From Bryum argenteum (Eukaryota > Streptophyta > Bryopsida > Bryales > Bryaceae): a DNA stretch of 64,000 nucleotides. Below the pieces are notes generated by a model, which was not told the DNA's origin, searched no databases, and worked only from the letters and a program-made list of their open reading frames with translations. Below, piece after piece: positions 12,991 to 56,099 of this stretch. Both the position numbers and the translations under genes were made by a program. Location of the stretch: NCBI GenBank assembly GCA_037043015.1, contig CM073321.1:19403001-19467000 (forward strand). The letters run 5' to 3'. Numbering within the stretch: the first letter of the stretch is position 1; every line of letters begins with the position of its first letter.

Positions 12991-13014
12991 TTATAAGACA
13001 AAATAAAAGATATT

Positions 13015-36557: not shown

Positions 36558-36559
36558 CT

Positions 36560-36930
36560 TAGTTCTGAAAAAAAAAAAAAAAAAAGGATCATTGTTGGTC
36601 AACTCAAATTCTCTCAATAATTAAGAATGATAAAAAATGCCATATAACAATGAAGGTACATTGTACATTAAAGGTTTTTCCCATTTGCTTATACCAATTG
36701 CAAGAGTAACATTACATTCACCAAGAATATTTTAATTGAGCAAAAGCAAAACTTCATATTTACATTCAATTTTTTTGCATACCTACAACATGGCAATCGC
36801 ATTTAGTGTATCATATTGCGTACACTACTGGTCAGCAATAGCACTTCCACGTGATGCACATACTGCCGGTAATTGTAGCAAGTAAACCCTTTTTGGCTTG
36901 GGCCCCCTTCATCATAAACTTGGCTTGGCC
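36560..36930 (-). pseudogene. 3' tail of the E2 type-d WCH gene, separated by E1
   Basis: On the minus strand, sequence from 36930 (GGCCAAGCCAAGTTTATGAT...) matches the end of the type-d gene at 50230-50300 and its downstream flank to about 50590. It continues the frame that stops at 55179, the two halves being parted by E1. The coding part is short; most of this stretch is 3' flank. Confidence 0.8.
36923..36930. repeat. Target-site duplication of E1, left copy
   Basis: GCTTGGCC immediately precedes the left terminus and is repeated exactly at 55179-55186. An 8-bp duplication is diagnostic of the hAT superfamily. Confidence 0.92.
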
Positions 36931-36948
36931 CAGGGTTGTCTTATTAGA
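36931..36948. repeat. E1 left terminal inverted repeat
   Basis: CAGGGTTGTCTTATTAGA is 18 bp and perfect with the right end. CAGGG is a typical hAT terminus. Confidence 0.92.
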
Positions 36949-37132
36949 GACAGACGGACGTCGACGCCATTACGACATGTCGAGCATGACATTGAGCCTC
37001 GTAATGTCTAATAGAATCTACTGAATCTTTTTTTTTACCCTGATTTACCCCCGCCCACGATGCATCCTACGTGGGCGCCACGCGGCTTGTACAAATTTCA
37101 AGAATACGGTTCGCGATCGCGCCACGTAGGGG

Positions 37133-37410
37133 ATCGGACCGGCGGTCGCGTCATCTAGACCGGCGGTCGCCTTGGCCGGACCGGCGGTCGCCTTCTCTGG
37201 ACCGGCGGTTGCCTTAGCGACCAACGATCGCCCAAGTCGACCGACGATCGCCCAGGTCGACCGACGATTGCCCAGGGTTGACCGACGATCGCCCATGGTC
37301 GACCGACGATCGCCCATGGTCGACCGACGATCGCCCATGAGCGACCGACGATCGCCCAGGGCGACCGGCGGTCGCCTATTCTGGCCCCTGGACCGGTGGT
37401 CGCCTAGGCT
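37133..37410. repeat. Array C block, E1 left subterminal
   Basis: About twelve units alternate GGACCGGCGGTCGCC with CGACCGACGATCGCCCATGG. It lies between the left terminus and the 3' end of the kinase gene. Confidence 0.9.
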
Positions 37411-37817
37411 GGCCTTGCATTGGAGGCTTCCCCCGAGTAGAATGAGTCAATTTTTTTATCCAACATTATCCAAAATTCTTCCGTTCACGTTTTTAAACGT
37501 AGATGAAGCATTAAGAATTCAAGATGAAACAAATTACAACAATCCACAAACCCCTGAAGAAAAGGCTAACATCAACCATGAGGTTTGAAACTCATGTAAC
37601 AAAAAATGTGGTGACATACATACGTGACTAGTGTAAAAAGGGAACATAATTATAAGAGTTGCAAAAATCTATTAGATTTGGAACAATATGTCAAAAAGTA
37701 GATTGTATATATTGCAAGTATGAAATGTGAATTACATGGCTAAATGAGCACTCAATGACGTGAAATGGTCATTCAAAGGAGTCTGTGAATTGCAAGAAGA
37801 TATACTGATATTATAAA

Positions 37818-39369
37818 CTAATAACTGTCCTCTCTAAATACAAGCTCCGGTGGAAGCATATGATATGGTTTCGCCATCAAGCGGTTCACCACCTCCGCAC
37901 AGGTCATTCTCTCTTTTAATTCATGCCTGGTCATTGAAAACACTTTCGTTAGGAATGAATCTCGCACCGTCGAATTCGGTAATAATTCTTCGTCGAATTC
38001 GTTATGCACACCAATCAGCTGGATGAGCTTGCCAACCGCATACGAATCTGATGCTACCGTGGTTGGATGTCGAAGTTCCTGGACGTTCAAATTTGTATCT
38101 GAATCTTCAGGTCCATAAGTATAGTACAACTCGGGCGCCACCCACCATCGACGTGTCATATCTACTTGTTTTTTTGGCGTCGTCTGGTATCCGTAACGTG
38201 AAGGCTGTTGTTCTACTATACGAGATGCCATCCCCCAGTCACACACTCCAATACAAATCTTGGTTCCTCCGAAAGTTGGGAAATGCAATAGTATGTTCGA
38301 GGGGGATAGGTCGTTGTGAAGAACTCCTGTCTTATGCACGAGATTCATGATGTACACTAAACCCCAAGCTAACTTCATCCTGTGCTGACGGAAAAGGGTA
38401 ATTCTGAAAGCCTCCTCTGGAGTGAGACTCGGAACTTCCTTCACTTTCGACCAGTGAAGATGTTTGTCTCCGACCTTCTCATCCAACTTCAACATCTCGT
38501 GTAGTGATCCCCCCATTCCACCAATACGAGTAAGCTTCGAATGTCCTTGTATGCAACGCCCAAAACTTGATAATTCCTGGATGATTCAAAGGACATACAA
38601 GAGCTTCTGCAGCAGTCTCTATCCTCCTCTTCTGAAGATTCATATTCTTGGAAAGCTTTGCTGCAAACTCGACATTTTCTGGAACGTGGTCTACTCCAAG
38701 TATCTTCACCTTCCGCACTAGTCCATGGCCTCCCTCCATATTGCGGCCTGATAGAGCTTCTATCGTAGCGTCTTGAGGAATCCACACCACCCCCGACCCT
38801 GTGTCTCGTTCAAATGTGGCGCGCAAAGCGGTTTTTTCCCATGACTTCCCTCGGGTTTTATTCTTGCTAAGCTTTTGGATTGTGTGTTGCCACCAATCCA
38901 TCTTGCATTTAAAGTGGTCCTCTTCTGGTGTTAGACGCCTCGTTCCAAATCGCTTCTTCCACAACTCCTTTACATTGAAGATGCATTGTTCAACTGTATT
39001 ATCCATCCACAACTCGTACTGCGAATGATAATCCACATCTTGGTATTTATCCGTTTCCTCCATGGCCTTCAAAAGTACTGCCGCCAATTTCTTCTTCAGT
39101 CTCTCTTTGCCCGTACTAACATTCCTGAGGTAGTTGTGCTCTAGGAATTGAGCCTCCGTTTCCTCATACCAATCCATGCATGCTTTTTCCGCAAACTTAG
39201 TATAATGTGATGTTGGGAATCCGGGTCTTTCTTCTTTTGGGTGTCTCCTCTTCCTCTTATGGCCTCCACTTCCACTAGGTTGTTCCCCTCCAACGTCTGG
39301 TGCAAATGTTTCGGGGGCATCCAGATCCCATGCTTGTTGTCCCTTCCCGTGCTTTTTGGATTTAGTCAT
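37818..39369 (-). pseudogene. Protein kinase-like cargo gene (single frameshift)
   Basis: It starts at ATG 39369 (MTKSKKHGKG). About 190 residues of unknown N-terminal domain come first (basic KRKRRHPKEE, then WYEETEAQFLEHNYL and WWQHTIQKL). A kinase domain follows: Gly-rich GGHGLVRKV, Lys in FAAKLSKN, Glu in RRIETAAEAL, catalytic loop HNDLSPSNILL, DWG in place of DFG, VAPELYY and SDSYAVGKLIQL. All residues needed for phosphotransfer are kept; Arg of HRD is Asn, so it is a non-RD type. The frame shifts once, in a run of six C (plus strand 38509-38514) within WWNGGSLHEML. Five would restore the frame, so a recent slip or a sequencing error is likely. About 515 residues in total. It shares a 611-bp divergent upstream region with WCH h. 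Confidence 0.8.
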
Positions 39370-39561
39370 CGTCGAAAATCTTGAAAAAAGCGGCAAAAAA
39401 TCTCCCCCCTGCTATCAATGTGCACCAAACCCCAAAAACTCCTCAGACGACCCGGCAGTGCGCATCATTAAGACGAGCAAGGACACAGGGCGGAAGAGAA
39501 TTCGGTAGGGGTTTGGGGAAAAGTAATAACAAACCCGCGCGTTGGGGTTTATATATCCTTG

Positions 39562-39840
39562 GAGACCGGCGGTCGCCCTACAGTCGCCCACCGGCGGTCG
39601 CCCCAGGTCCCGCTGTCGCGACAGCTGCACCGGCGGTCGCCCTACGTCCCGCAGTCGCGACAGCTGGACCGGCGGACGCCCTGCGTCCCGCTGTCGCGAA
39701 CAGCTGCACCGGCGGTCGCCCTACGTCCCGCTGTCGCGAACAGCTGCACCGGCGGTCGCGCTCTCACTGGACCGGCGGTCGCCACGCAACGCCATACCTC
39801 TATCTGGACCGCCGGTCGCCTTGAATTTCTAGTCGCCCCG
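39562..39840. repeat. Array C block between divergent kinase and WCH h genes
   Basis: About eight units of CACCGGCGGTCGCCCTA, separated by CGTCCCGCTGTCGCGAACAG spacers, fill the shared upstream region of two divergent genes. Spacer conservation makes this the most regular C block. Confidence 0.9.
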
Positions 39841-39979
39841 GCGTATATATATTCCCCCATCGTACCTAAACTTGTTATTTGGGTTTACTGGCCTAGCGCG
39901 TTGTCTTACATCCATTAAATTGGCTGCATGCTCGTGCGGGGTAGGTAATAACTATTTGCCATTTTTGGCTATTTCATCC

Positions 39980-40943
39980 ATGGCTACTCTCGGGCAACTT
40001 AGGAAGGAAGAGAATGACAAGAAGAGGAAGAGGAAGGGCGCTCCACAACGGAAAAGATTACACGTGCTTCAAATTCCAAATAAGCTTGCCTTCAGAGGTT
40101 GGGAAGATGAACCAGATATGTGGACGATGGCCAGTTGCGAATCGTTCATTGAATGGTGTCACATTGACAAGAAATTCCCTCTGTCTCGTCACCATTTTCA
40201 TCGGCGCACCAACAAGGCAAATCTTGGGTGGATGGGCTTTAGGTTCTTGTGTCCATATGTATAATCCGCAGTGTCTTTTAGTTCATTGTTTGACTCAAAG
40301 TCGTTGTGCTATATGCAAAGCGCCTTTTCACGAGCGGTTCTACGAGATGTTCAATCTAAGAACTTATATGCCGCCTTCTTGGGAACACAATGCTGAGACT
40401 ACTGACGAGGTTCGATTGTGGGGTAAAGACCTTATTTGGAGTTGGCGTAGAGGTGAACATGATCTCGAGAAGAGTACTCCTAGCTCCCAATTGAATTGGG
40501 AGACTGACCCAAACGAGATTCTAAGATTTGCTCCAATACTTGCCGGACAAGGTCCACAGCATGAGGGTAATCGGATGTTCTTCTTCCAATGCCTTGGAGG
40601 CTATTTTGATGTGAGCTCTAATACATCCAAGTGGGGGCCCCATCCAATGGGACATCGATGGAATCAATATGGGAAGAGAGTAACCGACGGTGAAGGTCGT
40701 GCCTCCATGGAAGATTTGGAAGAGTGTCAATATGCTGAGTCTACTTGGGGGCCACGATACCAGTCTCAAGCTCTAGACTATTTACTGGATGTACATAGTC
40801 CCCTCACAAGAAGGACTTTGCAGGACTTGAAAGACTCTAGAGTATTAGATCTGATCTTAAATGCAGATGGTCCATTCAATCGAACTCGTGCAAAGCGCAA
40901 ACTTCTTGTTGGAGAATGCTCCAACCCTCAGCCTAGTGAATGA
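39980..40943 (+). pseudogene. WCH-family gene h with a distinct C-terminal part
   Basis: The start at 39980 gives MATLGQLRKEENDKKRKRKG, a basic nuclear-localisation-like segment. FRGWEDEPDMWTMASCESFI, then EWCHIDKKFPLSRHHFHRR and NKANL follow. The core then breaks off at 40264, and a different frame, 40265-40943, carries CAICKAPFHERFYEMFNLRT, WGKDLIWSWRRGEHDLEK and ALDYLLDVHSPLTRRTLQDL. A frameshift or a short intron near 40230-40272 (acceptor CCGCAG) could connect them. The second half has no counterpart in the other copies, so this paralogue may have gained a new C terminus. Confidence 0.6.
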
Positions 40944-41377
40944 TAATTACGATATTGTGAATCCATACACTCCAGCATAGCGTATGGTTTTAGCTATATA
41001 GGACTATATTTCATTATAGTATTATTGAGTGGTAGCTTTTTGCGCAACAATGTATCTCATTTCCTATTGTACTACTTTTTGCATCGATTAAATCAATGGT
41101 ATGTATTTGGTTCGCTCCTTTGCTTGTGGTCTATCGATTGTACTTTGTCAGCTTTTATTGTATCTTACATCTTCATAGTCCATATAACCCGCCCAACCCC
41201 TTGTACCAATGCACAAACACGTACTTACGCATGATGAAAGGTAAAAACAAACTTCCATATATAAAGTGTATGCGAAAAAGTACATAGAAGAAATTACGTA
41301 CACTTTCCCTACACCTAATTAACGTAAATCAAATATCGTTTGGTGAATGTTGGGGGTGTAAGTCCATCGCCTCTATG

Positions 41378-42703
41378 TTAAGAATCTTCAACTTTTTCCT
41401 TGCCCTTTGAAAAAAGTGATCGTTGCGATTCCAAATCAACGTCGATTGCGTTTATGTTGATGTCATCTTCTGCGGTACTTTTACGATGAGCCCACTCTGC
41501 CCATGCGTCCTCAAATCGAGCATTCTCCTCAGCTACACGTAGTTGCTTTGCGAGTTTTACATTATGGTCTTCACTCCATTTCACCAGCCTCTTTAATTTG
41601 TCAACTTCCTCTGGAGTCTTGCCATACTTACCCGCTAATGCCAAATCCCGAATGCGTAGCATCTCTTTATCTACCTCTAGAGCAATAGATTCTTCAATAT
41701 CCGTCAACCGATCCCTCCTCTCAGCTAGGACCCCTTCCAGGTAATTATGTTTAGTTGTCCAGAACTCTACGTAGTCTTCTATGGAAAGGCTGTTTGAATT
41801 TTTCTTCTCGAAAAACTTCTCCTTAGCCTCTTTTCGTAGCACAAGCATGGTCTCCATGTCAGCTATGCAGTCTAGAGCTTTTTCGAAAACCTCCCGACAT
41901 TCTTCTTGTACATCGTCTGGTGTAGAAAGGGCTCTTTCTTTGAGGGCTTCCAATTCCTTTCTATTCTGCAGTACTAAATCCAATTCGATGCATTTTCCTA
42001 TACTTAAATTGTGCAAAATGATCAAAGTATCCATGGCTTTGGATAATCTTCCACCCACTTTTCGGAGTGGATTTACCTCAAAAGATATTCCTTCAGTCCA
42101 ATGCATTGGAGGACCAGTTGGTTCACAGAGCTCGTATTCGTGTGTGTGTTCATCCTCCGAGGATTCAGAAGAAGACCCTGCTGTGTAAAATTCCGCGTCG
42201 GCCTTAGGACTCATAGGTACCGTTCCAATTCCATCTCCTTCAATAGTCTTTGATGTCTCTCCAACCTCTATTGGTTCGGTCTTCTCTTGTACAGGCAAAC
42301 GTGGATGCGTCCACCAATGAACGTTCTTCCCGAGAATCATTTCCGCATATGCCATCTGTGCCAAAAAGTAGGGAACCTCATATTTAAAAATATGGTTGTT
42401 ACCGTATATCATATGCCAAGCATAGATGCATCTCGCTTTGAAATCGTAATGATGGCACTCTCGGAGGTTAGCTTCATTCTTGTGCCGATGAATATTGTGC
42501 CAATGTAGAGGAAAGAGCTTGTTGATGTGGCACCACTCCACATATTTCTCACATATGGCAAAAGACCACGGCCCCCTCTCTTCCTCCCATCCTCTAAACG
42601 CTACTATCTTTGGATTCTTCAAGATAGCTCTGCGCTTCTTCGCAATCCGACCTCGGTCATGGCGCACCATGGATGTGGCCGCTACAACGGGTGGTGCCTC
42701 CAT
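41378..42703 (-). CDS. WCH-family protein g, intact, with coiled coil
   Basis: An open frame of 441 codons from ATG 42703 (MEAPPVVAATSM) is uninterrupted. It has a basic segment GRIAKKRRAILK, then the complete core FRGWEEERGPWSFAICEKYV, EWCHINKLFPLHWHNIHRHK, HHYDFKARCIYAWHMIYG and YFLAQMAYAEMILGKNVHW. An acidic Ser/Glu linker (SSSESSEDEHTHEYE) leads to a long C-terminal coiled coil rich in Glu, Lys and Leu to the end. The function is unknown. The architecture (basic N terminus, compact core with conserved Cys/His, coiled coil) suggests a dimeric nuclear nucleic-acid-binding protein, which is inference. Array C (42848-43078) lies directly upstream. Confidence 0.75.
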   Translation of the reverse strand: MEAPPVVAATSMVRHDRGRIAKKRRAILKNPKIVAFRGWEEERGPWSFAICEKYVEWCHINKLFPLHWHNIHRHKNEANLRECHHYDFKARCIYAWHMIYGNNHIFKYEVPYFLAQMAYAEMILGKNVHWWTHPRLPVQEKTEPIEVGETSKTIEGDGIGTVPMSPKADAEFYTAGSSSESSEDEHTHEYELCEPTGPPMHWTEGISFEVNPLRKVGGRLSKAMDTLIILHNLSIGKCIELDLVLQNRKELEALKERALSTPDDVQEECREVFEKALDCIADMETMLVLRKEAKEKFFEKKNSNSLSIEDYVEFWTTKHNYLEGVLAERRDRLTDIEESIALEVDKEMLRIRDLALAGKYGKTPEEVDKLKRLVKWSEDHNVKLAKQLRVAEENARFEDAWAEWAHRKSTAEDDININAIDVDLESQRSLFSKGKEKVEDS

Positions 42704-42847
42704 AAGAAAAATTCGTAGAAAAACGCAAAGTCCCTCTACGAGCAAGCAAGCAGCAACTCTGAAGTCGATACTAGTCAATGCGCGAAAAGGAGGAACTCGC
42801 AAAGTGTGAAAATGGACTGCCCGTCGCGTTCTTAAGCACAGTGATAA

Positions 42848-43078
42848 GGCGACCGGCGGTCTACAAAATGTGCACCGCCGGTCGCCCGCTGGTCCAGCTA
42901 TCGCCCTATCTGTACTGCCGATCGCCACAGCGACCAACGTTCGCCCATGAGCGACCGACGTTTGCCCATAAGGTATACCGGCGGTCGCCTTGTGACCGAC
43001 GTTCGCTCATTGGCTGGACCGCCGATCGCCCCAGCGACCGATGTTCGCCCATGAGCTGGACCGGCGGTCGCCCTATTT
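42848..43078. repeat. Array C block upstream of WCH g
   Basis: Roughly nine units alternate GGACCGGCGGTCGCC-type with GCGACCGACGTTCGCCCATG-type. It begins about 145 bp before the g start codon. Confidence 0.9.
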
Positions 43079-44387
43079 CACCTCTTTATGTTGAATGCGA
43101 GGGCATCAGGTTTCATAGCAGCTCCTACGAGGATGAGAATCATGAGATGAGGATGAATATTGGATGGGGGAGGAATAAAAGAGCCCTTTAGTTTATAATG
43201 TATTAATTTAAAAATTAGGAAGGTATGCATAGGGTAGGAATTTCGGATCGTGGGTCCCATAATTCCCATTTTATGATCATTCAATTCCTAAGAAATGGAC
43301 AAGAGATGTGTAAATGGATAATAATGAATGGGAGGAAGGATGGGGTGAGAGTTTTTCGTCCTCTTTGTAGGCATGAATGGTATATATTATTTTGTATGGT
43401 GTATATTTTAAGAAGTCATATCGTGCCTAATCAGTTATAATAATTGATAAAATGTGAATTCATTTATAGAGCATCAGCCTCTTCAATGCATGAAAACACT
43501 TTAATGAATCTAACAATTCAATACCTACAATCTAAGAATGTAATCCAAGGTAGTCAATTCCTAGCATCTAAATAAGATACCATTTCTGTACCAAAACTGC
43601 ACCTCATATTTTAACATCACATTCAAGAACAATTTCTAGTTTCTTTTTATATCAGTGGAGCCTTTAATATATTATAAGATCTCCGTATATAATATCCGAC
43701 TGATAGATTATCCTTGCAATGAGTTTATGGGCTCATAACATTATGAAATTGGTTTAATTGAGTGGGGGGAGGATTCTGAAAATTTTGGCAAGTCAAATAA
43801 TAAGGCCTTGAAATACAATTAAGTGAATGGAATTAGTGCATATACCCTAGAAAGCACTGAGAGAAATAGTTGCTTACCAAATTAAAAGGTGATATATCAT
43901 GACATATTATATGTTTGGAGAAAAAATGAGTGACCAGTATATAAAGGTAAATATTTGAAGTGAAGAAGACTAATGATTTGCGGACATTCTTATCAACCCG
44001 TTCCTGAGCGTACTTTTGGAACCAATATTTGATGAGTATTTTATGTTGAGAATTCTGAGAATGTTAAAAATTATAATTTTGTAAATTGTGATTAAACTTG
44101 TATCGATCTAAATCCATATTACACCACAAGAGTATCCAATGAGCATAAAATCATTTTTCATGTATCATGGTCACCGCTCTTGGCAAAATGCCCATGACCA
44201 TGAGAATCATTTTCAATTGGGAATGAGATATAGGAAGAAGTGAGTGGGAATGAGAGGGAATGAGGGGGGATGAGGGGGATTGAAGGGGGGAATGGGGGAG
44301 ATGCTTGAATCGGTTAATTCAAAATTTGAATATTGCATAAAGAGGATCCAAGAAAAAGAGCGGGAGCTCTCGCGAAGTCGCCCCTGC
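43079..44387. other. Non-coding stretch of E1 shared with E2
   Basis: No genes are seen. From about 43630 onward it aligns, inverted, with E2 60100-59100, including the CACCACAAGAGTAT segment and hairpin near 44113-44200 that also occur in the MITE-like inserts. A GGGGAATGAGGG-rich tract at 44220-44300 precedes array C. Confidence 0.6.
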
Positions 44388-44572
44388 AGAGTGCCGGTCG
44401 CCCCGAAGCGTTCCGCTGAGGCTGGATCGAAACTCTTCTGAAGCTGCACCGACGGTCGCCCCGGAGGTCTGCTGCAGCTGGACCGGCGGTCGCCCTGGAG
44501 CGAGTCTTGCAAGAAACACTGGACCGGCGGTCGCCCTAACGATGTCGCCGGGACACCGCCGGTCGCCCTGCC
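44388..44572. repeat. Array C block upstream of WCH c
   Basis: About six units (GCCGGTCGCCCC, GACCGGCGGTCGCCCT, CACCGCCGGTCGCCCT) end some 200 bp before the start codon of the c gene. Confidence 0.88.
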
Positions 44573-44768
44573 ACAGGAGGTTAAATACAATCGTAATAGG
44601 CCGTACTCGTCACTTTTCAGTCCACGTGCCGTGGAATTGCGCATTGTCTGGTGTCGACTCAAAGTTGCCACTTGCTTGCTCGATTGGAGGCCAACGTGGA
44701 CTGCACTATTTTTGGTGTTTTGTATCTAACATCACATCATAGCGGCATTTCCGTGATCGGAGGGAACA

Positions 44769-46366
44769 ATGACTACAATTGCGGAACGTAAAATAGTACT
44801 TGGGGAGCGACGCAAGAAGAGAGGAAAAACACAGAAGAGGAATCACCGTATTCTCCAAGATGCCACTCAACGCGCTTTTCCGGGGTGGGAGACCGAAGAG
44901 GGTGTGTGGAGTCAGACAACAGTGAAGAATTACATCGCCTGGTGCCACATCAGCAAGTTGTTTCCACACTTTCGACATGAGACGCACTTGAAATTAAATG
45001 CTGCAAATCTGCACTATTGTAAGCATGACGAATTCGTGCAACGATATATTGAAGTGTGGAGGTTCCTTTATAAAGGCAAGAATGTCACCAAGAACGAGGT
45101 TTCGTATCATAATTCTCAAATGGTGTATGCAGAGGTAATATTGGAGAAAGTGGTGGATTGGAGCTCAATGAAAAAATCGCCTCAATTCTTCCTTCCAACC
45201 AAGCAAGATATTCCAAGAGCCCCATTGACAAAAAAAACCCACGAGAAGGACTTACGGCAGCAAGGCATCGGAAAGATGGGGATGCTGATGATGTGTATGT
45301 TTGGGTAAATCCTAATTCTGATGAAGAAGAGGTTAAGGAGAGGGAGCATCATACTCCTCTTGTAGAAGGTTCTATTGGTGGCGTCGAACACTTTCATGTG
45401 GGTGAAACAAGCGTGCAAGATTTGGATGTGATTGATGCACCTGTGAAGCACATCGAGGACCTACGAACAGAAGGAGAAGCGGATGTCATTGAATACATGG
45501 AGGTTGAAGCAATGTTTGGTGCTTGTACTTTGGGAACACTTGAAGTTATAGTTCGGCCCGCTATGAGCGCCTCTCCTCAAACAAATGTTAGCGTAGAGGA
45601 TGGGACTCTAGAATATCCAATGGAAACGATTGAACAAAATGAAAAGAGAAGGAAATGAAGAAGTAGAGCTGGAGAAGGAAGTCGAAGTAGTCTTCAAAGC
45701 AAAACGCCCGAATGAAAACGATGATTCGTAGATGAAGTTGTTAAACAAGGCTTATGAGGATTATGAATATATGTGTTTCATGCTTTGTCATACGAACGGG
45801 CAAAGTGTGTTGAACTCCAACATGACATAGAGGTAATCAAGGATGGAAAAAAGAAGATCCAAGAGGAGGCGACGAATGTTCTCCCAGCTCTGGTTGCATC
45901 GGATCAGGTCGATTATGAGGAAGAGCTCATAAAGAAGACGAAACATTTCGAGGATGTGCATAGGAGATACAAGCGCGTCGACGAATGGTTTGTGGTCAAT
46001 GATTGGGGTCGCGAGAAGGATTTTATGGTTGAAGGAGCCAAGGACCAAGGTCATTTTGAGAAGGAGCTAAAGGAACTCATTTCGGCATGCGATGCCTTGA
46101 GAGCTGAGATCGAAAGGGTGAACCTAGCATCAATAAGATTGAAGGGGAACAAGGAAAAGTTAGTCCTCAATAAAATAGATGGAACCGTGGATATTGCAGA
46201 AGAGGGTCAAAGTTCACAGCGCAATGAAACAACTAAGGAGTTGGTCAAAAAGCTACTTGTGCTCGCAGAAGAGGAGAGGTTCTTAAATGCAAGGATCGAA
46301 GATCTATGTATTGCAAATAAGACAAAGGAGAAATGTCGGAGCTGGTACCATCTAAAAAAAATCTAA
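44769..46366 (+). pseudogene. WCH-family gene c (frameshifted)
   Basis: It starts at ATG 44769 (MTTIAERKIVLGERRKKRGK). The full core is present: QRAFPGWETEEGVWSQTTVK, then IAWCHISKLFPHFRHETH, NAANLHYCKHDEFVQRYIEV and VYAEVILEKVVDW. A frameshift in a run of eight A (45230-45237) moves the frame to an acidic middle part. Stops near 45656 and 45740 interrupt it. The C-terminal coiled coil (45773-46366; YERAKCVELQHDIEVIKDGK, ELKELISACDALRAEIERVN) then continues. The E2 copy at 58422-56840 is its closest relative. Confidence 0.75.
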
Positions 46367-47065
46367 AGTACAATGGAAGAAGATTAGAGTAAGCGGAATC
46401 AAATTTTAGAAAGACGTTGGTGTGTTGGTTATATCCAATTACTTTATTTTATTTGTGAATTGAAAGTTGGGAGATAAGTGCTAGGCTGGATGTTATACAA
46501 TGTATCTTTTTGATTATATGATATGTTTTTACGAGTAAGATACCCGTTGAACGATGTTATGTTTATTATTTGTATATATGCGCACGGTGTTATTTTAATC
46601 ATCTTGTTTATTCTTTTTATTTGTTTATTTTTTATTTGAAATGCATGATTTGGAAATATCTAAAAAAAGGTTCTTAGAATGGTATGTAGGTTGGTAATTA
46701 TTTAAGTTGGTAGGTTTGTATGTTGGTAGGTTGGTGGATACTTTGGACAATGGTCTTTTAGAAAATTATGTCGTGTATACCATTCCATATGTATATATAA
46801 TGATATTGAATTTTGGAAAGCTTTGATTAGTATTAATCCACGATTAAGTAATGATAAATAATTTGTAAAAATTTGGAATCGTAACTAAGTTGTTGAAGTT
46901 ACGTATAAATATATGGTGGGATTTAGTTGCAAGTATTTAGAGTCAATGAATATATTTACAAACCCCCCAAAACCTCGAAAGGCAATGATTCGTACATGAT
47001 TTCAAATATGCAGAAAAAGATTTGTAGCGAAAGGGGGGGAAGCAGATATTTGCGCCCATCACGTA
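46367..47065. other. 3' flank of WCH c, shared with E2
   Basis: No genes are seen. AATTTGGAATCGTAACTAAG and following sequence (46800-47050) align with E2 56540-56340 (inverted), so this flank is part of the element. The rest is AT-rich. Confidence 0.6.
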
Positions 47066-47322
47066 GACCGCCGGTCGCCCTGTCACCGTCGTTCGCTCAT
47101 GAGCTGGATCTGCGGTCGCCCTAGCGACCGACGTTCGCCCATCGCCTAGATCGGCGGTCGCCCCAGCAGGAGGCTGCGCGGAGGCTCGCGGACACTTTCT
47201 CCTTGGTGCTTGCCCATCACGTAGACCGCCGGTCGCCCTGTCAGCGTCGTTCGCCCATCAGCTGGATCGGCGGTCGCCCTAGCGACCGACGTTCGTCCAT
47301 CCGCTGTATTGGCGGTCGCGCG
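47066..47322. repeat. Array C block after WCH c
   Basis: Two nearly repeated runs of GTAGACCGCCGGTCGCCCTG, CGTTCGCCCATCAGCTGGAT and CGGCGGTCGCC units flank a GC-rich spacer. It corresponds to 56100-56290 in E2. Confidence 0.88.
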
Positions 47323-49007
47323 ATTTGGAGGTTTTGGATGAAGTTAACACCAAGTATCCTATGGACCTATACCATGCCAAGGTTGAATCAAATTAACACC
47401 AAGTATTTTCTTCCATGTAAATCCAAGTTCCATGTGGCTTCTTTCATGATTTAATATATTTAATACGGTTAGAGAAAATAATAAAACCACCTCCTCCCCC
47501 CTTTAGTATAACTTCCTCTATTACTTAGCATCCTACAAAGTCAAAGTAAATCATAACATGTAGATACGTTTCTTTTACGGGAAATTTTGTTCTTCCATAA
47601 TTTTTATAAGGTCTTTTTTAGTCAACACAAGTTTTAAAATCGTTATCTCTTTCCACAAATCTATTTTCCGTATATCATTCAATATTCTACTCATTCAAAT
47701 GACTTACAAGTAAATGATGACCTATAGATGACATATCCCCACGATTTTCTAAATAACACCATCATTTCCATAGGGTCATCATTAGGTAGTCTAAGGGTTT
47801 AAATTATCCTCTTACCCCCTTTATCTATTTTTTCTTATGTTTTGAAGTTTTGGTGTTTCTAAGTGCTTGCAATCTAAATCCACCCTATAGATCCTTTACT
47901 CCAACGATTTTTTTTTATAGCTCCATCATGTTCATAAGGTAGTTATTACATAGTCCAATTCTTTTTAAAATATTTTTTCTCTCCATTTAACTATTTTTTA
48001 TCTATTACTTAAAGCTCTACTTACTTCGAAAATTCTATATTAATTTGGGAAAAATAGTACAGGTTGTCCTATAGTATTTTTGATGGTTCCATCATTTTTA
48101 TATGATCCATATTACCTACACTAAATAGGTAGATTGGTGTTAGATACACTAATATACATAAATAGGCTATAAGTTTTTACTATTAGTCAATATTTGTACC
48201 CTCTACAAAGGTGAAGATGGGGATCCTTACATAGTATTGGAATCGATACTCTTGGTAAAATTTTTATCCCAAAAGTAAAATCTTGTAGCATTTTCAAATC
48301 TTATAAAAATCTAACACTAATGTACTTATTTAGTGTAGTCCAAATGTTCAAATTACATTCCCCACTTTGTTTTCGTATGCATGTGCGCACAACGCCTACT
48401 TTCACATGACTATTTAATTTTTGGGAATTCGGGAAAAATACTTTCATTCCTGCTGTGCCCCTAAGATTTATATTATATTTTTTACACAATATGAATCACC
48501 TAGGAAAGTTATCAACACCCCTTCTACTCCCTTTTTACTTATATATTTACATATTCCCCCGTGCTTCAGACCCCGCAATTCAAATATCCCCATATAAACT
48601 CAACCACTTAGTTCGCATTCTCCCATGGTTTTATGAATTCTTCCATTACATTTATGAGGCCCTTATTACCTAATTCAAGTGTTCGTATCACCTCCTGTAT
48701 GCTTTCATTCTCTTTTCCCTTATCATTCGAAGTTGTGGTGGGTGCACCTAAATTATGACATATGGATGCGATTTCCCTATGGTTTTTTTTATGATTCGAT
48801 CATTTTCATAGGGTCATTATTAGGAAGTCCAAGTATTAAAATCACATTATTGCCCCATATATATATATGTATTTTTTTTATTTTTTTTTGTTTTTAGTTT
48901 TGATGGTTCCAAATACTTGCCACCAAAAGTCATTATATACATTCGTTACTACTTTGATAATTCTGACACACACGCTGGGAGGAAGGTTAGTCCTTGCCCA
49001 TGAGCTG
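47323..49007. other. AT-rich insert between two array C blocks
   Basis: About 1.7 kb has no gene and no counterpart in the compact E2 arrangement. The C blocks on either side (47066-47322 and 49008-49355) are very similar, so it may be an insertion into, or a duplication around, one block. Confidence 0.5.
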
Positions 49008-49355
49008 GACCGGCGGTCGCCCAGTGACCTACGGTCGCCCACCAGCTGGATCGGCGGTCGCCCCAGCGACCGACGTTCGCCCGTCCGCTGCATCGGCGGT
49101 CGCGCGATCCAGAGGTCGCGACCCCACGCATACGTCGCGCCCTCCCATTTGGAGGTCGCACCCTCTAACCGATGGTCTCCCACCAGGTGGACCGGCGGTC
49201 GCCCATCCGCTGGATCGGCGGTCCCTCCAGCGACCGACGTTCGCCCATCGGGTGGATCGGCGGTCGCCCTGGCGACCGACGCTCGCCCTTCAGCTGGATC
49301 GGCGGTCGCCCTAGAACCAGGGTTAAATATACGCGCGCAGACACCGCCAGTCGCC
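49008..49355. repeat. Array C block upstream of WCH d
   Basis: About fourteen units alternate GGATCGGCGGTCGCCC and GCGACCGACGTTCGCCC. It ends about 240 bp before the start codon of the d gene. Confidence 0.9.
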
Positions 49356-49596
49356 ATTTTTCACCTCCACGTGACAGGCCTTGCGCATTGTCTGGTGTCG
49401 ACCTCTGGTTGCCGCCTACTTGTTCGAGCGCTAGAGCGTGCGGTGATTGGCACACACGTGCCACACGTGTGCATTTTACACATACATGCTGCCCGATTTT
49501 CGAGTTTTCTAAATTCTGTGTTAGTCCACGGAATAGATATAACTTTGTTTTGAGTTAGTTTAAAAATTTTCTTCCTTGGTTAGCATTTGGGTGACC

Positions 49597-50301
49597 ATGA
49601 CGCCTAGCCAGGAGCGGAAGATAGCGAGAGACAAGGACCGCAAGAGGAAAGGAAAGAAGCAAAGGAGATTTCACAAGATTCTCATAGATCCCACGCAACA
49701 TGCTTTCCCGGGGTGGGCGCAAGTAGAGGAACCGTGGACCCTTAAGACTTGCAAGTGGTACATTGCTTGGTGCCACATCGGCCATTTGTTTCCACACTAT
49801 CGTCACGAGTTTCATCGCCGCCTGAATTGCGCAAATTTGCACTATTGCCATCACGATGAATTTGTGCAACGATGCATTGAAGTGTGGAAGTTCCTCTACG
49901 CCGGTGTGCATGTGGTGAGCAACGAGGTTTCGTACAGCATAGCACAAATGGTGTACGTGGAGGTAATTTTGCAGAGGGACGTGGATTGGAGGACGTTTAA
50001 AAATTCCCCTCAAACAATTAAGTCAACAGAACCCCATATTCCGCGAGCTCCTTATCCAGCGGCCAACCCACGAGAAGGGCTTACAACACCTAGGGGTTAC
50101 AAAGGAGGAATCCCTGATGAAGACATAGTTTGGTCAGATTCGGAAGAAGAAGGGACTGAAAGGCGAGAAGTGGATGAAGGGGAGTCGAACCAAACGATGG
50201 AGGAAGGTCGAGCACATTTTGGTGAAGGGGGGCCAAGCCAAGTTTGTACAGAAGGGGGGCCAAGCCAACTTTACAATGAAGGGGGCCCAAGCGAAGAATG
50301 A
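49597..50301 (+). CDS. WCH-family protein d, intact
   Basis: An uninterrupted frame of 234 codons starts at ATG 49597. The N terminus is strongly basic (RDKDRKRKGKKQRR). The core is complete: HAFPGWAQVEEPWTLKTCKW, then YIAWCHIGHLFPHYRHEFH, NCANLHYCHHDEFVQRCIEV and MVYVEVILQRDVDW. The tail is acidic (DEDIVWSDSEEEG) and ends in three EGGPS repeats. It lacks the coiled coil of types c and g. Type-d copies lie directly upstream of the transposase in all three hAT elements. The function is unknown. Confidence 0.75.
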   Translation: MTPSQERKIARDKDRKRKGKKQRRFHKILIDPTQHAFPGWAQVEEPWTLKTCKWYIAWCHIGHLFPHYRHEFHRRLNCANLHYCHHDEFVQRCIEVWKFLYAGVHVVSNEVSYSIAQMVYVEVILQRDVDWRTFKNSPQTIKSTEPHIPRAPYPAANPREGLTTPRGYKGGIPDEDIVWSDSEEEGTERREVDEGESNQTMEEGRAHFGEGGPSQVCTEGGPSQLYNEGGPSEE

Positions 50302-50849
50302 CTGATAGTTAGTTAATCACGTTCTTTTAGCAATTGTAGAAAAGTAGTGTACTCAATACCAAACACTAAGTGCAATTGCCATTTTGTATGCAAAAACGTT
50401 GAATGTGAATATGAAGTTTTTGATTTTCTTCAATTTAAATATTCTTGGTGAATGAAATCTCACTATTGCATGTGGTATAAGCATAAAGGAAAAACCTTCA
50501 ATGTCCGAGGTACCGTCATTGATACATGGCAATTTTTATCATTCTTAATTATTTAGGAAATGTGGATTGAGCAATATTCATCCCTTTATTTTTATGATTT
50601 GGAGCAAGAGAAGTTAAAACTCTAGTTTCTAATATGAGTCCTTATTGTTCTCTCTCTTGCCTTCACATGTTCCCTTTATTTTTATTATTTTTTTTTCTTT
50701 TCAAAAGAAAAGCATTATTGCGAATCAAACATTTTTGAGCCACATGGTCTCCGGGATTCTAGTTAATAATAGCTGTACTGCGTGGACCATGGATATTGAC
50801 TTGGAGAGTAAAGTGTTCTTCGTCGGAACAATCTGTCATCGCTATGGCG
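50302..50849. other. 3' flank of WCH d and spacer before the transposase
   Basis: No gene is seen. The stretch aligns with E2 36900-36230 (inverted), apart from the MITE-like insert present only in E2. A shared segment, GAGCCACATGGTCTCCGGGA, is near 50740. Confidence 0.6.
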
Positions 50850-51015
50850 ACCGGCGGTCTAGGGCTAGGGCGACCGGCGGTCTAGCTAGCGCGATGAAGT
50901 CAAGGCCAGGGCGACCGCCGGTTCACATGGCGCGACAGCGTTGTTGTTAGGGCGACCGCCGATCTGGCTGTGGCGACCGCCGATTTGGCTGTGGCGACCG
51001 CCGATCTGGCTGTGG
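50850..51015. repeat. Array C block upstream of the E1 transposase
   Basis: About seven units (GGCGACCGGCGGTCTAG, GGCGACCGCCGATCTGGCTG) end 180 bp before the transposase start codon. Confidence 0.9.
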
Positions 51016-51195
51016 AGTATATAAGGAGTCGTTCACAGGCTCGAAGCCACTTTCCTTTGCGCTTGGCCCGTTGTCTTGGGTCTCCCCATGAGAAGCCCCC
51101 TGCTCGGTCTATATGTGCAAAGAGTAACTTGAGCCCTTGTAGTGCGTGTTGTCGTCACTGGTTTCATTGCAGCGGCGGAGGTGCGGTTCCAGAAC

Positions 51196-54100
51196 ATGGA
51201 GCATTCTTCCCAATCCAACGGGGTACCAGATAATAGAAGAGACACTCGCATATGGGACGAGTGGCTACGAGTATCCACGGAACGGAACGACAAGCCAAAT
51301 ACTCGCGTGTGCTTATTCTGTGGGAAAAGCACAGTCTTTGTAAGGCAACGAGCATTAGCTCATTTCGGATATCCTCACAATTCCCCATTATCCCGGGGTA
51401 TGAGGTTGCCCCGTGGAGTTCTCGAGCTATTCCGTGACTGCGGAGGGATAGTTCCAAAGAACAACATTTCTTATGCGGATGTTGTTCCTGACTCACGAGT
51501 GGATGCCGGCATACCATATGCGGCAAGGGAAACTACAGAGAACATAGATACCCCTCGCATCAACTCTGTACAAGTGCCATCCCCTAACCTAAGGTCTAAT
51601 CAGGTGCCATCTTCTAACAAGGGGAGTCATGGCAGCAATGGACAAAGGATCTCTACACTCTCTAGTGGACGGCGACATGGGCAAAGGAGTATGGAGGATA
51701 GTTTTGATCTTGCCATTAGGCAAAATTTGGATGCAAAGTGGGCTTCATTTTTCTATGAGGCAAACATTGCATTCAATGTCGTACGACATCCAGCATTCAT
51801 AAGTGCCGTTCAAGAGACAGCAAAGGCCAGTATTGGTGGATATCAACCACCCTCGTATCATGCTATTAGGACTACGATGCTCGATGCGAAGAAGGCAGCT
51901 GTGCAAAGGTCGGTAGAGGATCGAACAAAACTTTCTATCGAGAAGTACGGAGGAACTATATGCTCAGATGGGTGGTCCGATGTCACAAGCAGACCACTCA
52001 TTAACATGATGCTTGTTTGCCCAGTGGGAGAGGTGTTTTTGGGATCAGTGGATACTACAGGGAAGAAAAAGGACATTGCTTATGCGGCAAATGAAATGGC
52101 GAAGTACATAGAGGAGGTTGGACCACAAAACATCGTGCAGATATGCACCGACAATGCAAGCTCCATGTTAGGTGCTGTGGAGAAGTTGCAGATAGACTAT
52201 CCTCACTTGTATGGACAAGGTTGTGCGGCACATATTCTAGACCTCCTTCTGGGAGATTGGGGGAAAGAGGCGTAGGTTAAGCAATTGGTGGAGCAAGCCA
52301 AGAGAGTGTGCACATTTATTAAGGGGTCCCACGTCCCCCTTGCTCTATTCAGGAAGTAATCGCCGAAGCTGCAGCTCAAGGTACCACCTTAGACTCGATT
52401 TGCAACAAACTACTTGATGATAGAGCGGTTGTTAAAGCTACAACAACCTCTGAACAACATGGTGATCGATGCGGAGTGGCATGTGTTTGTCCAAACATTG
52501 TTCAACAGGCAAAACAGTCACCAGTTACAGACAAAGGCAAGGAATGTGCGGATTAGCATTAGGAGCGATGAGTTCTGGGAGAATTGTTCGAAGTTTGTGA
52601 AAGTAGTTGAACCAGTACTCCTAGCTCTTCGGGAGTTCGACGGGGAAGTACCAGCCATGCCCAGGGCGTATGTGATCATGTCGGACGTTAAGGAACACGT
52701 GTTCTCTTTGCGTGAACCTCCATTCGAACTATCCCCCGACATTGCTACAAAATACGAGGATGCATTTCAAAAACGATGGGAGATGATGCTCACGGACCTC
52801 CACTATGCAAACTGACTTTGTTGAACCCTTATTTGACAAATATTGGAGCAATTCAAAACAATGGAGAAGCAAGAAGAGCTTTAAACCGGGTCATAAGGAA
52901 GCTTAGCGCCCCAATGGGAGTGGTCTATGAGGAAGTGGTGCGGGAACTCATACAATATGAGGAGAGGACGGGTCCATTTAACACCAATTCGTAGGCCCCC
53001 GATCCAGCTCACTCGTGACTTGTTACCACATCAATGGTGGCATCAAGTCGGGGAATGCCTTGCCAAAAATTGCGAAGAGGATTTTGGCATTGACATGTTC
53101 AGACTTCATCATGTGAGAGGAATTGGAGCATGTACTCTTTCGTGCACAACAAAGTGAGGAATCGGTTGTCAACTTCCAAAGCGAGAGGACCTTGTGTACA
53201 TCTATCGAACGCCAAACTTGAGCGCGAGAAAACGTACCAAATCGCCGAGAACGTGGTACGAAAATTACTTAGAAGAAGAGGACTCGACGAAGAAGACTAC
53301 TATGTACCCGACAATGAATGGGATGATGGTGTATTCATGGATAACCCGGAGGCGGATGACGACAATTATGTCAATGACGGTAGCGAACACGACGACCTAG
53401 AGAATTGGAACGACAACGAAGGAAACATGACTATTCATGTCAAGGACCCGTTTGAGTTCAATGACGACCAGGATGTTCCACAACCGCCTCGCCCGGTTTG
53501 CGGTATTTGCCAACGACACGAAGGGAGAAGGAGTGGCAAATTTACAACTCAAGAGAGTACCGCCTAGCGAAACAAGACTTGGTAAACCGGATGGATGAAG
53601 AGAACATTGGTCCACTTAAAGGCGACCCACACACTCTAACAACGACGATAAACTTGAGAGTGTGAAGGGCACGGTTACCACGACAGGAGTTCAAATGGAC
53701 CAAATTAAAGTGGAACCTAACGATGTATCCAATTCAGGTTGCATGGAAGTGGGGTCACCTAGAGTTTCAACCATTCGATCAAGGAATTCAACTCTTAACG
53801 GAGATGACTCCGATGTACCTCTACAACAATTGTTCCCAAGGGTTACCCAACCCAAAGGGGCCCATACAACTCGTATGGTATTGCCGAAGATGGAGGTCAA
53901 GATAGAACCAACAAGTCCAATATGCAACGGGGCATTGGCAGTGGCACGAGACGTCGGGCCATCTACACAACCTCGCAATCGTATTACACGAGGCCATAAG
54001 CGTTTGAGGAAGGCACACGATCGACGATGGCGGAAAGGAGCACGCGTACATGAAGAAGTCCATGCTGGGATTGCTTCATCCAATAATCCGAATACACGTA

Positions 54101-54360
54101 CAATGCGCCATCTACCACTGAACGCAAACGGGATCACTAATGCTTCACGGCCCTTGAAGCGCCTCGTTACACTGAACAAGAAAACAACCACGGACACGGA
54201 ATTGCGCAATTTGGCGAGTGAGGTTGAGTGTGAAGTACGCAATGAGACAGAGGATGAAGACGAGGATGGCGACCAAAGCACTGATGACTCTCTAGGTGAA
54301 ACCGATCCAAACGCAGATGAAGTATCAAGCGACGATACGTATACATTGAAGGATACCTAA
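51196..54360 (+). pseudogene. hAT transposase of E1 (several stops and frameshifts)
   Basis: It starts at ATG 51196 (MEHSSQSNGV). A BED-type zinc finger (RVCLFCGKSTVFVRQRALAH) comes first. The DUF659/RNase H catalytic part follows (ICSDGWSDVTSRPLINMML; IVQICTDNASSM; GCAAHILDLLL), with both early Asp residues kept. TAG at 52273, TAA near 52358, TAG near 52390 and a +2 frameshift near 52805 break it. The dimerisation region (SSCERNWSMYSFVHNKVRNR) lies at 53100-53180. A long C-terminal extension (53662-54360) carries two sumoylation-type motifs (IKVEP, VKIEP), a basic RGHKRLRKAHDRR segment and an acidic tail. Canonical hAT transposases end after the dimerisation region, so the extension is unusual. 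Confidence 0.85.
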
Positions 54361-54734
54361 AGACGGGTTATTAGAATTTTGTTATTTTGGATTGGAAGCA
54401 CGAAGTTCATTGTTAGTACTCGGTACAATACTACAATGTACTGCAAGTAGGGCAACTATTAGCTTACAATACTTTGGTATCCTAGTATGTTTCGGGAGTA
54501 TAATACATATAGTTTGGTATATGTAATAGTTACATCATATATATGAATACTATGATTATAGACATGAGCAAATTTGTACTATGAAATGCACCATTGACCT
54601 TGTTTCCAATTAAAAATGTATTCATAAAAATGCTTTGAAGCTCATTTTGTACCAATATGGATATATTTTTCTTGTTTCATATACAACTATAGTGCTGGTC
54701 ACCACACACATCGCCACATGGGCGCTAACCCCAG
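54361..54734. other. Transposase 3' flank
   Basis: AT-rich, with no gene. Likely the 3' untranslated region and terminator of the transposase. Confidence 0.5.
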
Positions 54735-54970
54735 GGCGACCGCCGATAGCCATAAGCGACCGACGATCGCCCTGGGCGATCGTCGGTCGCTAAGTACTAG
54801 ACCGGCGGTCGCCTAATAGCGGTTGTCAGGGCGACCGCCGGTCTCCATACTGGACCGCCGGTCGCCTTCTCGCGGCAGCCAGGGCGATCGGCGGTCGCAG
54901 TAGGCGACCGACGTTCGCCTCGGTGCGACCGCCAGTCGCCTAGCGAGGTCGCCCACCGGCGGTCGCCCAC
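54735..54970. repeat. Array C block, E1 right subterminal
   Basis: About ten units (GGGCGACCGCCGATAGCC, GCGACCGACGATCGCCCTGG, GACCGGCGGTCGCC) lie about 200 bp inside the right terminus, mirroring the left block at 37133-37410. Confidence 0.9.
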
Positions 54971-55160
54971 TGTGAAGTGTATTTTGATTTTCCACGTCAT
55001 TATCAACCCTACGCCACGTAGGAAAATAGCTTTTTACCTCAAGGTAAATCTCAGCAAGTTTTTTACTATGTAATTTTTGGTACGGTCGACATTTTCGTCG
55101 ACTCGACGTCTAACAGACATGTCTAATACAACAAATCACACAGAAATTCCCAAAATTGTG

Positions 55161-55178
55161 TCTAATAAGACAACCCTG
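55161..55178. repeat. E1 right terminal inverted repeat
   Basis: TCTAATAAGACAACCCTG is the exact inverse complement of the left end. Confidence 0.92.
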
Positions 55179-55186
55179 GCTTGGCC
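55179..55186. repeat. Target-site duplication of E1, right copy
   Basis: GCTTGGCC is identical to 36923-36930. Confidence 0.92.
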
Positions 55187-55819
55187 CCCTTCATTCAAAC
55201 ATGCTTCATCTTCATCCATTGTTTGGTTTGACTCTTCTTCATCCACTTCACACCTCTGGTTGCTTTCATCATCCGATTCCAACCAAACTATATCCTCATC
55301 AGGGATTCCTTCTCTGAAACCCCTAGGCGTTGTATAACCTTCTCGTGGATTCTGTGATGGAAAAGGTGCTCGTGGAATGACGGGTTCTATTAGCTTTGTC
55401 ACTTGAGGCGTTCTTTTTAACGTCCTCCAATCCACCTCCCTCTCTAAAATTATCTCCACATACACCATTAGTAGTATGTTGTACAAAACATCGTTGCTCA
55501 CCACATGCTTGCCGCCATAGAGAAACCTCCACACTTCAATACATCGTTGCTCAAAGTCATCGTGGTTGCAATAGTATAAATTTGCGCAATTCAGGAGGCA
55601 GTGATACTCGTGACAATAGTGTAGAAACAAATGGCCGATGTGGCACCAAGCAATGTAATACTTGGCAGTCTTTTGGTCCCACGGTCCCTCTACTGTCTTC
55701 TACCCAGGAAAAGCATGTTGTGTCGCATCTAAGAGAATCTTGTGAAATCTCCTTTGCTTCTTTTCTTTCCTCTTGCGTTTCCTGTCTTTTTCTTTCTTCC
55801 GCTCTCGGCCGTTCGTCAT
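55179..55819 (-). pseudogene. WCH-family gene e (type d of E2), 5' part, interrupted by E1
   Basis: It starts at ATG 55819 (MTNGRERKKEKDRKRKRKEK). One stop replaces the Trp of FPGW. The core continues: YYIAWCHIGHLFLHYCHEYH, then NCANLYYCNHDDFEQRCIEV and MVYVEIILEREVDW. PRAPFPSQNPREGYTTPRGF and an acidic linker lead to DEACLNEGGQA, where E1 begins. Homology to the d gene of E1 resumes at 36930 across the E1 insertion, in the same phase of the GGPS repeats. Confidence 0.85.
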
Positions 55820-56099
55820 TGTTACGCGAATGTTGACGAACTAAAAATCTATAATCAAAACTCTAAACGAAGCTTTATATATTCTATAAAAGAACACATA
55901 ATTTGAAAAACTAATTGTTGAATCTATTGCGTCCACGGGTGGCACGTTTGTGTTATTGTGTGGCACATGTGTGTGAATCACTGCGCGTTCGAGCACTCGT
56001 GGAAGCAGGTGACAACCATTAGTCAACACGAGACAATGCAAAAATGCACAACATGTGGAGGTGAGAAATGGCGACTGCCGGTGTGGGCGATCACTTTTG

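Follow-up and report, generated by a model that had tools for sequence, protein, structure and literature searches.

Can an 18.2-kb locus with six genes be a single transposon of the hAT superfamily, whose members are textbook small, one-gene elements, and do its further genes belong to it? The locus lies in a window (the whole stretch of DNA analyzed) of 64,000 nt from Bryum argenteum contig CM073321.1 (19,403,001-19,467,000, forward strand); all positions given here are window-relative. A sequence-only reading had bounded it by a perfect 18-bp terminal inverted repeat (TIR) and a perfect 8-bp target site duplication (TSD), and both were borne out. The TIR CAGGGTTGTCTTATTAGA at 36931-36948 (plus strand, kinase side) and 55161-55178 (minus strand, transposase side) has no mismatches between the ends, and the TSD GCTTGGCC flanks the element on the left (36923-36930) and right (55179-55186), giving a span of 18,248 bp (36931-55178). 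With up to 3 mismatches allowed, these two ends were the only TIR matches in the window (shuffle mean, 0.04). The search for further copies with the same termini and differing TSDs, which had been suggested as a check, yielded 284 exact TIRs genome-wide versus 0 for the reversed control, and 494+484 matches versus 1+4 at up to 2 mismatches. Among 13 elements with both ends read, TSDs were perfect and mutually different in 10 cases, matched at 7 of 8 bases in 2, and were absent in 1. Elements with the full gene set measure ∼18 to 20 kb, among them siblings of 19.4 and 19.7 kb with the same gene order and strands, and the ends are common to gene-less relatives. The size, rightly flagged as unusual for the superfamily, is therefore normal for full-length family members in this genome. 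These data establish the locus as one copy, now decayed, in a family of giant hAT DNA transposons.

Assignment to hAT relies on the 8-bp TSD, the short TIRs, and a C-terminal dimerisation region found in siblings. The window transposase gene (DUF659; 51196-54357, plus strand) is broken, as had been noticed, by several frameshifts and stops, and long open transposase frames are present in other copies. Dimer_Tnp_hAT scored above the cut-off in the sibling transposases E24.5 and E31.3; Pfam listed it neither for the broken window transposase nor for the 695-aa frame of E30.6, which stops before that region. The transposase N-terminus displays a Cys/His pattern by eye, for which Pfam lists no BED finger. 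Three other identities were rejected. The element ends read CAGGGTTG, not CACTA, and the TSD is 8 bp, not the 3 bp of CACTA/Spm. VANDAL elements belong to the MULE class, and the transposase matches here were DUF659 and Dimer_Tnp_hAT, with none of MULE type. Finally, the frames scanned by Pfam contained no DUF3435 captain of the Starship kind, and a TIR and an 8-bp TSD are present.

All six genes named in the sequence-only reading are present, in the fixed order kinase (minus), WCH1 (plus), WCH2 (minus), WCH3 (plus), WCH4 (plus), and transposase (plus). The kinase gene (37821-39411; Pkinase E, 1.1e-9; 38.5 bits, above the cut-off of 31.7) is split in the window into two overlapping frames (37821-38585 and 38482-39411); among the matches listed, three other genomic copies carry it as a 530-codon frame with no stops in the match. 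WCH proteins have a basic N-terminus and a conserved domain without a reliable Pfam match, and the long ones contain coiled-coil-like stretches. In siblings, WCH1 encodes the WCH domain, a coiled-coil-like stretch, and a RING-H2 finger that is complete in two of the four siblings read. The eight-ligand pattern C-x2-C, C-x-H-x2-H-x2-C, C-x2-C occurs in E31.3 and E17.5, whereas one histidine is missing in E24.5 and the second half in E21.4. The zf-RING_2 match of E31.3 WCH1 (E, 5.6e-6; 27.0 bits) falls just under the cut-off of 27.3, and PDB RING proteins also support the finger. The finger is incomplete in the window WCH1 (39980-40940), which is internally deleted and lacks the middle part present in siblings, a loss that had been missed. 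WCH2 maps to 41381-42703 and WCH3 to 44769-46363, the latter in several frames that correspond to one 530-codon frame in sibling E30.6. WCH4 (49597-50301) is open and encodes 234 aa, with 27-bp repeats in its tail (50224-50296).

The gene set recurs well beyond this locus. At the 71 of 154 genomic WCH4 matches included in the collinearity count, the transposase follows downstream within 6 kb, in the same orientation, in 58 cases (wrong-strand control, 0/71) and the kinase upstream on the opposite strand in 48 (control, 1/71); both occupy the expected place and strand at 41 of the 71 loci. Omega values, computed so that no base was read in more than one frame, were 0.71-0.72 for the kinase, 0.53-0.57 for WCH4, and 0.58-0.61 for the transposase (p < 0.01, two sets of disjoint pairs), which shows that these three genes are under purifying selection; for WCH1-3, such constraint is weak or unproven. 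Recurrence in the same order and on the same strands, in siblings and genome-wide, together with purifying selection on at least the kinase and WCH4, favors regarding the kinase and WCH genes as part of the element itself rather than as chance cargo; "cargo" had been the label given earlier. That label implied a Pack-type hAT that captured host genes by chance. The kinase does match a widespread domain, large transposons do capture genes, and the poor constraint on WCH1-3 would suit such an origin, but the 41 collinear loci, the selection on the kinase and WCH4, and a transposase-WCH4-WCH3 order already found in an older element make capture very improbable.

This older element is a relative into which the present copy inserted, a nesting that the first reading had overlooked. 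Its left part (30385-36930, minus strand) contains a transposase tail and pieces, one of them on the plus strand (33474-33917), and a candidate TIR with 4 mismatches (30385-30402); its right part (55187-58425, minus strand) carries WCH4 and WCH3. The older WCH4 is 66% identical and split by the insertion. When the flanks were joined in silico minus one duplication, homology to the WCH4 tail was regained, with the two tail blocks in different frames; this WCH4 was therefore itself frame-shifted. An assembly join at the element ends is thus unlikely and, given also the abundance of exact TIR copies with distinct TSDs, the notion of such a join, or of unrelated neighbors enclosed by chance inverted repeats, has a negligible probability. 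The window copy bears frameshifts and stops absent from three aligned siblings, plus a deletion. Since perfect ends coexist with these lesions, the copy either decayed once it had inserted or was mobilized in trans. The earlier proposal of fairly recent movement thus draws support from the perfect ends and is softened by the lesions.

The subterminal motifs and arrays previously claimed are real and extend to every gene. Exact cores of the palindrome GAYCGNCGRTC number 38 in the window, 37 inside the element and 1 elsewhere (0.08 expected), and arrays of it occur at both element ends and upstream of each of the six genes. The left subterminal array (37137-37373) has 9 exact core sites with an ∼21-bp period and the right one (54758-54896) has 6. 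Internal arrays lie between the divergent kinase and WCH1 genes (39564-39817) and upstream of WCH2 (42851-43069), WCH3 (44434-44532), WCH4 (48996-49311), and the transposase (50841-51015); another, between WCH3 and WCH4 (47053-47319), sits inside a 1.5-kb non-coding segment retained in 5 of 6 gene-less relatives. At up to 1 mismatch there are 68 sites (shuffle mean, 1.3), only 2 of them in coding sequence although this makes up 52% of the element. Spacings are most often near multiples of 21 bp, and each gene start has 4 to 11 sites within 800 bp upstream. Among 12 elements, the outermost 650 bp on the kinase side contained five or more exact sites in all 12, and the transposase-side end had at least 4 in 11, E21.4 having 1. 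Three array subtypes of the palindrome were distinguished (GACCGACGATC, GACCGCCGATC, and GACCGCCGGTC), and ends and internal arrays differ in subtype, GACCGACGATC accounting for 45/154 sites at the ends versus 4/151 inside. The older host element has 19 sites at up to 2 mismatches (shuffle mean, 5.9; maximum, 12).

Such a shared motif before each gene suggests that the giant hAT family may run its own small regulatory network. The WCH proteins, encoded by the element, would recognize the GAYCGNCGRTC arrays as sequence-specific DNA binders. At promoters, their binding would activate the element or relieve its silencing, with a precedent in VANC, the anti-silencing proteins described for Arabidopsis VANDAL elements (PMC5735166, PMC10398659); at the ends, it would assist the transposase in pairing these, with a precedent in TnpA, the protein that binds subterminal repeats of Spm/En (PMC2613891). 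The WCH1 RING-H2 finger and the kinase may modify host or element proteins on array chromatin. We rate array binding by WCH proteins, with activation or unsilencing and assistance to transposition in the manner of VANC or TnpA, at close to an even chance. The complete scheme, a self-regulating multi-gene hAT in which a private family of four DNA-binding WCH proteins would recognize a palindrome, equally private, at all promoters and at the two ends, while the ubiquitin-ligase module of one of them and the kinase dismantle host silencing locally, is rather unlikely as a whole.

It is possible, on a tentative assessment, that the transposase itself binds the end and promoter arrays, and that WCH, RING, and kinase act elsewhere, e.g., on host silencing or transposase stability. 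hAT transposases bind subterminal repeats, as Ac transposase does its own, and DNA binding by WCH is a prediction; yet the transposase has a separate TIR-proximal candidate site, and differing array subtypes at ends and inside fit several binders. Apart from its copies in the TIRs, this site, GTCTAATA, is found in 11 of 12 elements at ∼74-80 bp from the end on the kinase side, and in the window copy also near the transposase-side end; only 1 copy lies >300 bp from an end across all 12. Binding of the arrays, as GC-rich promoter-like elements, by a host factor, with accessory genes in roles unrelated to them, would accord with their promoter-like placement 145-589 bp upstream of gene starts. 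We nevertheless consider it improbable: once the element and its host element are set aside, near-matches (up to 2 mismatches) in the rest of the window were no more frequent than in shuffles, and the arrays are also terminal, at both ends in nearly all 12 elements.

Ac/Ds elements combine a short TIR, an 8-bp TSD, the hAT dimerisation region, subterminal repeats, and gene-less relatives within a few kilobases. The B. argenteum family has all these traits but differs in its 18-20 kb, in five further genes recurring with the transposase, and in the arrays of one palindrome that precede every gene. With VANDAL/VANC, as described (PMC5735166, PMC10398659), it shares a multi-gene organization in a plant element, dense short-motif tandem arrays in non-coding parts, and a family of proteins encoded by the element; repeats occur within the protein as well, here the 27-bp repeats of the WCH4 tail. 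Unlike VANDAL, its transposase is of the hAT superfamily, and it has a RING, a kinase, and four WCH paralogues with no reliable Pfam match. Spm/En and large CACTA elements, one of which reaches a comparable 20.5 kb, likewise involve a separate DNA-binding protein for subterminal repeats, the role predicted here for WCH (PMC2613891), whereas CACTA ends, a 3-bp TSD, and another transposase set Spm/En (TnpA, TnpD) apart; its repeats are described as subterminal (PMC2613891), and the B. argenteum arrays also lie upstream of genes. Giant KDZ, EnSpm, and Sola elements of Ectocarpus and other algae are similarly very large, with accessory genes mostly of unknown function, but belong to other superfamilies; in the table of that report hAT accounts for 0.05% of the Ectocarpus genome, and hAT is not named among the giants it describes (PMC12477816). 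ToxhAT of fungal wheat pathogens, which spans 14 kb and bears genes, was originally assigned to hAT; its duplications are TA and its TIRs 74 bp long, and the name ToxTA has been proposed instead (PMC12506042), so it cannot serve as a precedent for a giant hAT.

A hAT family of six genes and 18-20 kb, with a motif regulon across its promoters, would place accessory networks of the kind seen in VANDAL or giant algal elements within the evolutionary reach of this superfamily, and would offer a further, independent case for testing how transposons overcome silencing. WCH adds a protein family that lacks a Pfam match and is partly fused to a RING finger. The model predicts testable points, namely, the pairing of each protein with an array subtype and the targets of the kinase and RING. 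If the self-regulating reading is true, the family would possess its own anti-silencing system, independent of VANC and situated in a different superfamily and plant lineage.

The 18-bp terminal inverted repeats (TIRs) that the sequence-only reading placed at the ends of the giant hAT element proved identical (36931-36948 and 55161-55178), and no other place in the window matches them with 3 or fewer mismatches. The 8-bp target site duplication (TSD) GCTTGGCC indeed flanks both ends of the 18,248-bp element. Genome-wide searches (258.8 Mb in 25 contigs, with the window at 19.40-19.47 Mb of C1, contig CM073321.1) returned 146+138 exact TIRs versus 0 for the reversed pattern, and, with up to 2 mismatches allowed, 494+484 versus 1+4. 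The first 100 exact places are all on C1; among these, neighboring pairs less than 40 kb apart were oriented inward in 17 cases, outward in 6, and in the same direction in 3. We inspected both ends of 12 of the 17 inward pairs (window element included) and of one C10 element found via its genes. Further copies combining the same 18-bp ends with differing 8-bp TSDs, which that reading had proposed to look for, were thereby found: 10 of these 13 elements, which span 4.1 to 19.8 kb, have perfect and mutually different TSDs, 2 have duplications matching at 7 of 8 positions, and one sibling, E21.4, has none. Membership in the hAT superfamily is well supported by TSD, TIR, and dimerization region.

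The six anticipated genes were all recovered, namely a kinase (Pkinase, E = 1.1e-9), the four WCH-family genes (WCH1 to WCH4), and the transposase (DUF659, E = 6.9e-34). Siblings E24.5 (19.4 kb) and E31.3 (19.7 kb) carry all six in the window element's order and strands; the transposase is largely missing from E21.4 (17.7 kb), WCH1 and WCH2 are absent from E30.6 (13.2 kb), and E17.5 (10.3 kb) has neither WCH3 nor WCH4 and little of the transposase. Stretch 53620-54357 was rejected as a separate gene; in E24.5 it belongs to the transposase frame, as its C-terminal part. Among the matches listed, a transposase frame of 1,073 codons occurs in three (one without an in-match stop), a 530-codon kinase frame free of in-match stops in three copies, and WCH1 frames of 786 to 827 codons in nine. 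Between the ends of E18.3, E25.3, E1.07, E1.10, E4.5, and E8.6 (4.1 to 11.8 kb), tblastn at 1e-5 yielded zero matches to the element genes. These six share ∼370 bp at the transposase-side end (95 to 96% identity) and ∼360 to 430 bp at the kinase-side end (77 to 84%), and five of them also contain a 1.5-kb noncoding segment of the window element. E18.3 (C1:18326254-18338006; 11.8 kb, with family ends) harbors a different set of frames of up to 446 amino acids, perhaps a nested retroelement.

Gene order was evaluated on the first 71 of 154 WCH4 matches. For 58 of them a same-strand transposase match lies no more than 6 kb downstream (wrong-strand control, 0), for 48 a kinase match lies 6 to 25 kb upstream on the opposite strand (control, 1), and 41 have both. 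On C1 alone, with 47 WCH4 matches, the transposase was found at 39 (random mean, 0.2) and the kinase at 33 (random mean, 0.9). Given this fixed placement and the near-empty controls, the kinase and WCH4 are travelling companions of the transposase. C1 (44.1 Mb, 17% of the genome) is strongly enriched in the family, with 79 of 108 tabulated transposase matches, 47 of 71 tabulated WCH4 matches, and at least 100 of the 284 exact TIRs. None of the 90 light-harvesting protein gene matches in the genome, many of them tandem copies, is on C1. C1 may be a sex chromosome or another poorly recombining one. For one of the light-harvesting genes, PDB chains 8htu and 7xqp, from the moss Physcomitrium, are the second and third matches after 9vfj, in keeping with a moss as the likely host.

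The resident transposase is broken, as had been read from the sequence, with several private indels and stops relative to three siblings. The window kinase is split between two frames, and the middle of WCH1, together with the first half of its RING finger, is missing. The WCH4 frame is open; its tail contains a 27-bp tandem repeat (50224-50296) encoding an EGGPSQ-like sequence. We estimated omega on two sets of three disjoint young-element pairs, assigning each base to one frame only; a count with some bases in two frames gave stronger apparent constraint, and single pairs of highly similar copies scattered above 1. The values grade purifying selection gene by gene. It acts on the kinase (omega = 0.72 and 0.71; P = 0.009 and 0.0094), WCH4 (0.53 and 0.57; P = 0.0075 and 0.0092), and the transposase (0.61 and 0.58; P = 0.002 and 0.0008), is suggested for WCH3 (0.65 and 0.72; P = 0.02 and 0.068) and WCH1 (0.70 and 0.70; P = 0.073 and 0.07), and was not demonstrated for WCH2 in these two sets (0.87 and 0.78; P = 0.25 and 0.096). 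Very young WCH4 copies (the 30 best scoring) are closer to neutral (omega = 0.64), as expected after insertion, and their low stop count is biased by the choice of best-scoring copies.

WCH proteins consist of a basic N-terminal stretch followed by a domain of ∼100 residues with (nearly) invariant W, WCHI, F, H, H, N-x2-N, C, F, R, Y, M-x-Y-x-E, L, and V-x-W. No reliable Pfam family match to this domain was found, and a fold search with its predicted model, of fair quality (pLDDT 77, pTM 0.71), gave no convincing match. Nine relatives were listed at E ≤ 2.9e-34 from 5.8 billion predicted proteins, every one on a contig of at most 3.4 kb. Judging from weak PDB coiled-coil hits, the longer WCH proteins look partly coiled-coil. 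WCH1 ends in a RING-H2 finger, complete in two of the four siblings inspected. More distant relatives of this RING part (43 to 46% identity, several without in-match stops; C10:15917979, C9:7362887, C4:5289780, C3:2466229, and others) may belong to a sister family of greater age or to separate elements.

The window element is nested within an older relative whose genes follow the family's usual order in the flanks: transposase tail and transposase at 31383-35690 (minus strand, except piece 33474-33917) and WCH4 and WCH3 at 55172-58425 (minus strand). Identity is 66% for WCH4, 69% for the first transposase part, and 45 to 55% for the WCH3 pieces, and a degenerate TIR with 4 mismatches lies at 30385. 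Insertion split the host WCH4 in the tail homologous to the 27-bp-repeat tail; joining the flanks in silico restores this homology in two frames, the old gene itself being shifted. E1.07 is likewise flanked by kinase-gene sequence. A still older hAT-WCH relative occupies 24857-28368, in the order hAT, WCH4-like, WCH3-like, with WCH parts ∼50% identical. It shows no palindrome excess (24.8-28.4 kb); it may have decayed, or the motif may have changed along with its reader. Elsewhere in the window, an AT-rich segment at 11390-17401 (GC ∼29% versus ∼42% around), which contains frames for a PIF1 helicase (14761-16767) and an OTU-protease-like protein, is likely a Helitron, and two inverted copies of a DUF7869 gene near the window's ends (717-2969 and 60937-63133) probably belong to another transposon family.

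The window has 38 sites of the palindrome core GAYCGNCGRTC where 0.08 are expected, and 37 lie inside the element. At up to 1 mismatch the element has 68 sites (shuffle mean, 1.3; maximum, 4), of which just 2 fall in coding sequence, although 52% of the element is coding. The 800 bp preceding each of the six gene starts contain 4 to 11 sites, with kinase and WCH1 having a single divergent array in common. The commonest spacings (40 to 42, 19 to 21, 23, 60 to 63, and 82 to 84 bp) lie close to multiples of two helical turns, and spacings of 33, 53, and 73 to 75 bp are also present. The arrays noticed at both ends recur across 12 elements, with at least 5 exact sites less than 650 bp from one end in all 12 and 4 to 10 at the opposite end in 11 (1 in E21.4). 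Subtype GACCGACGATC accounts for 45 of 154 near-end sites versus 4 of 151 internal ones, and GACCGCCGATC for 58 inside versus 17 near ends, in a sample of related and hence nonindependent elements. The older host element retains 19 sites at up to 2 mismatches (shuffle mean, 5.9; maximum, 12), some of them clustered near its end and in front of its transposase and WCH4.

Other superfamilies are known to include giant DNA transposons that carry accessory genes (PMC12477816, PMC6431247; the main text of the latter does not use the word hAT), and our literature search found no precedent for a giant multigene hAT. The DNA logic of the window element, with one motif at every promoter and at each end and mostly absent from coding sequence, is the same as in two precedents with transposon-encoded proteins, the anti-silencing VANC proteins of Arabidopsis VANDAL elements (PMC10398659) and TnpA, which binds subterminal repeats and is required for Spm/En transposition (PMC2613891). 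The main rival reader of the arrays is the transposase itself. The motif distribution, together with a multicopy WCH family in which at least WCH4 is selected, argues for the WCH proteins; by analogy, these are most likely the factors that would read the arrays at promoters and ends.
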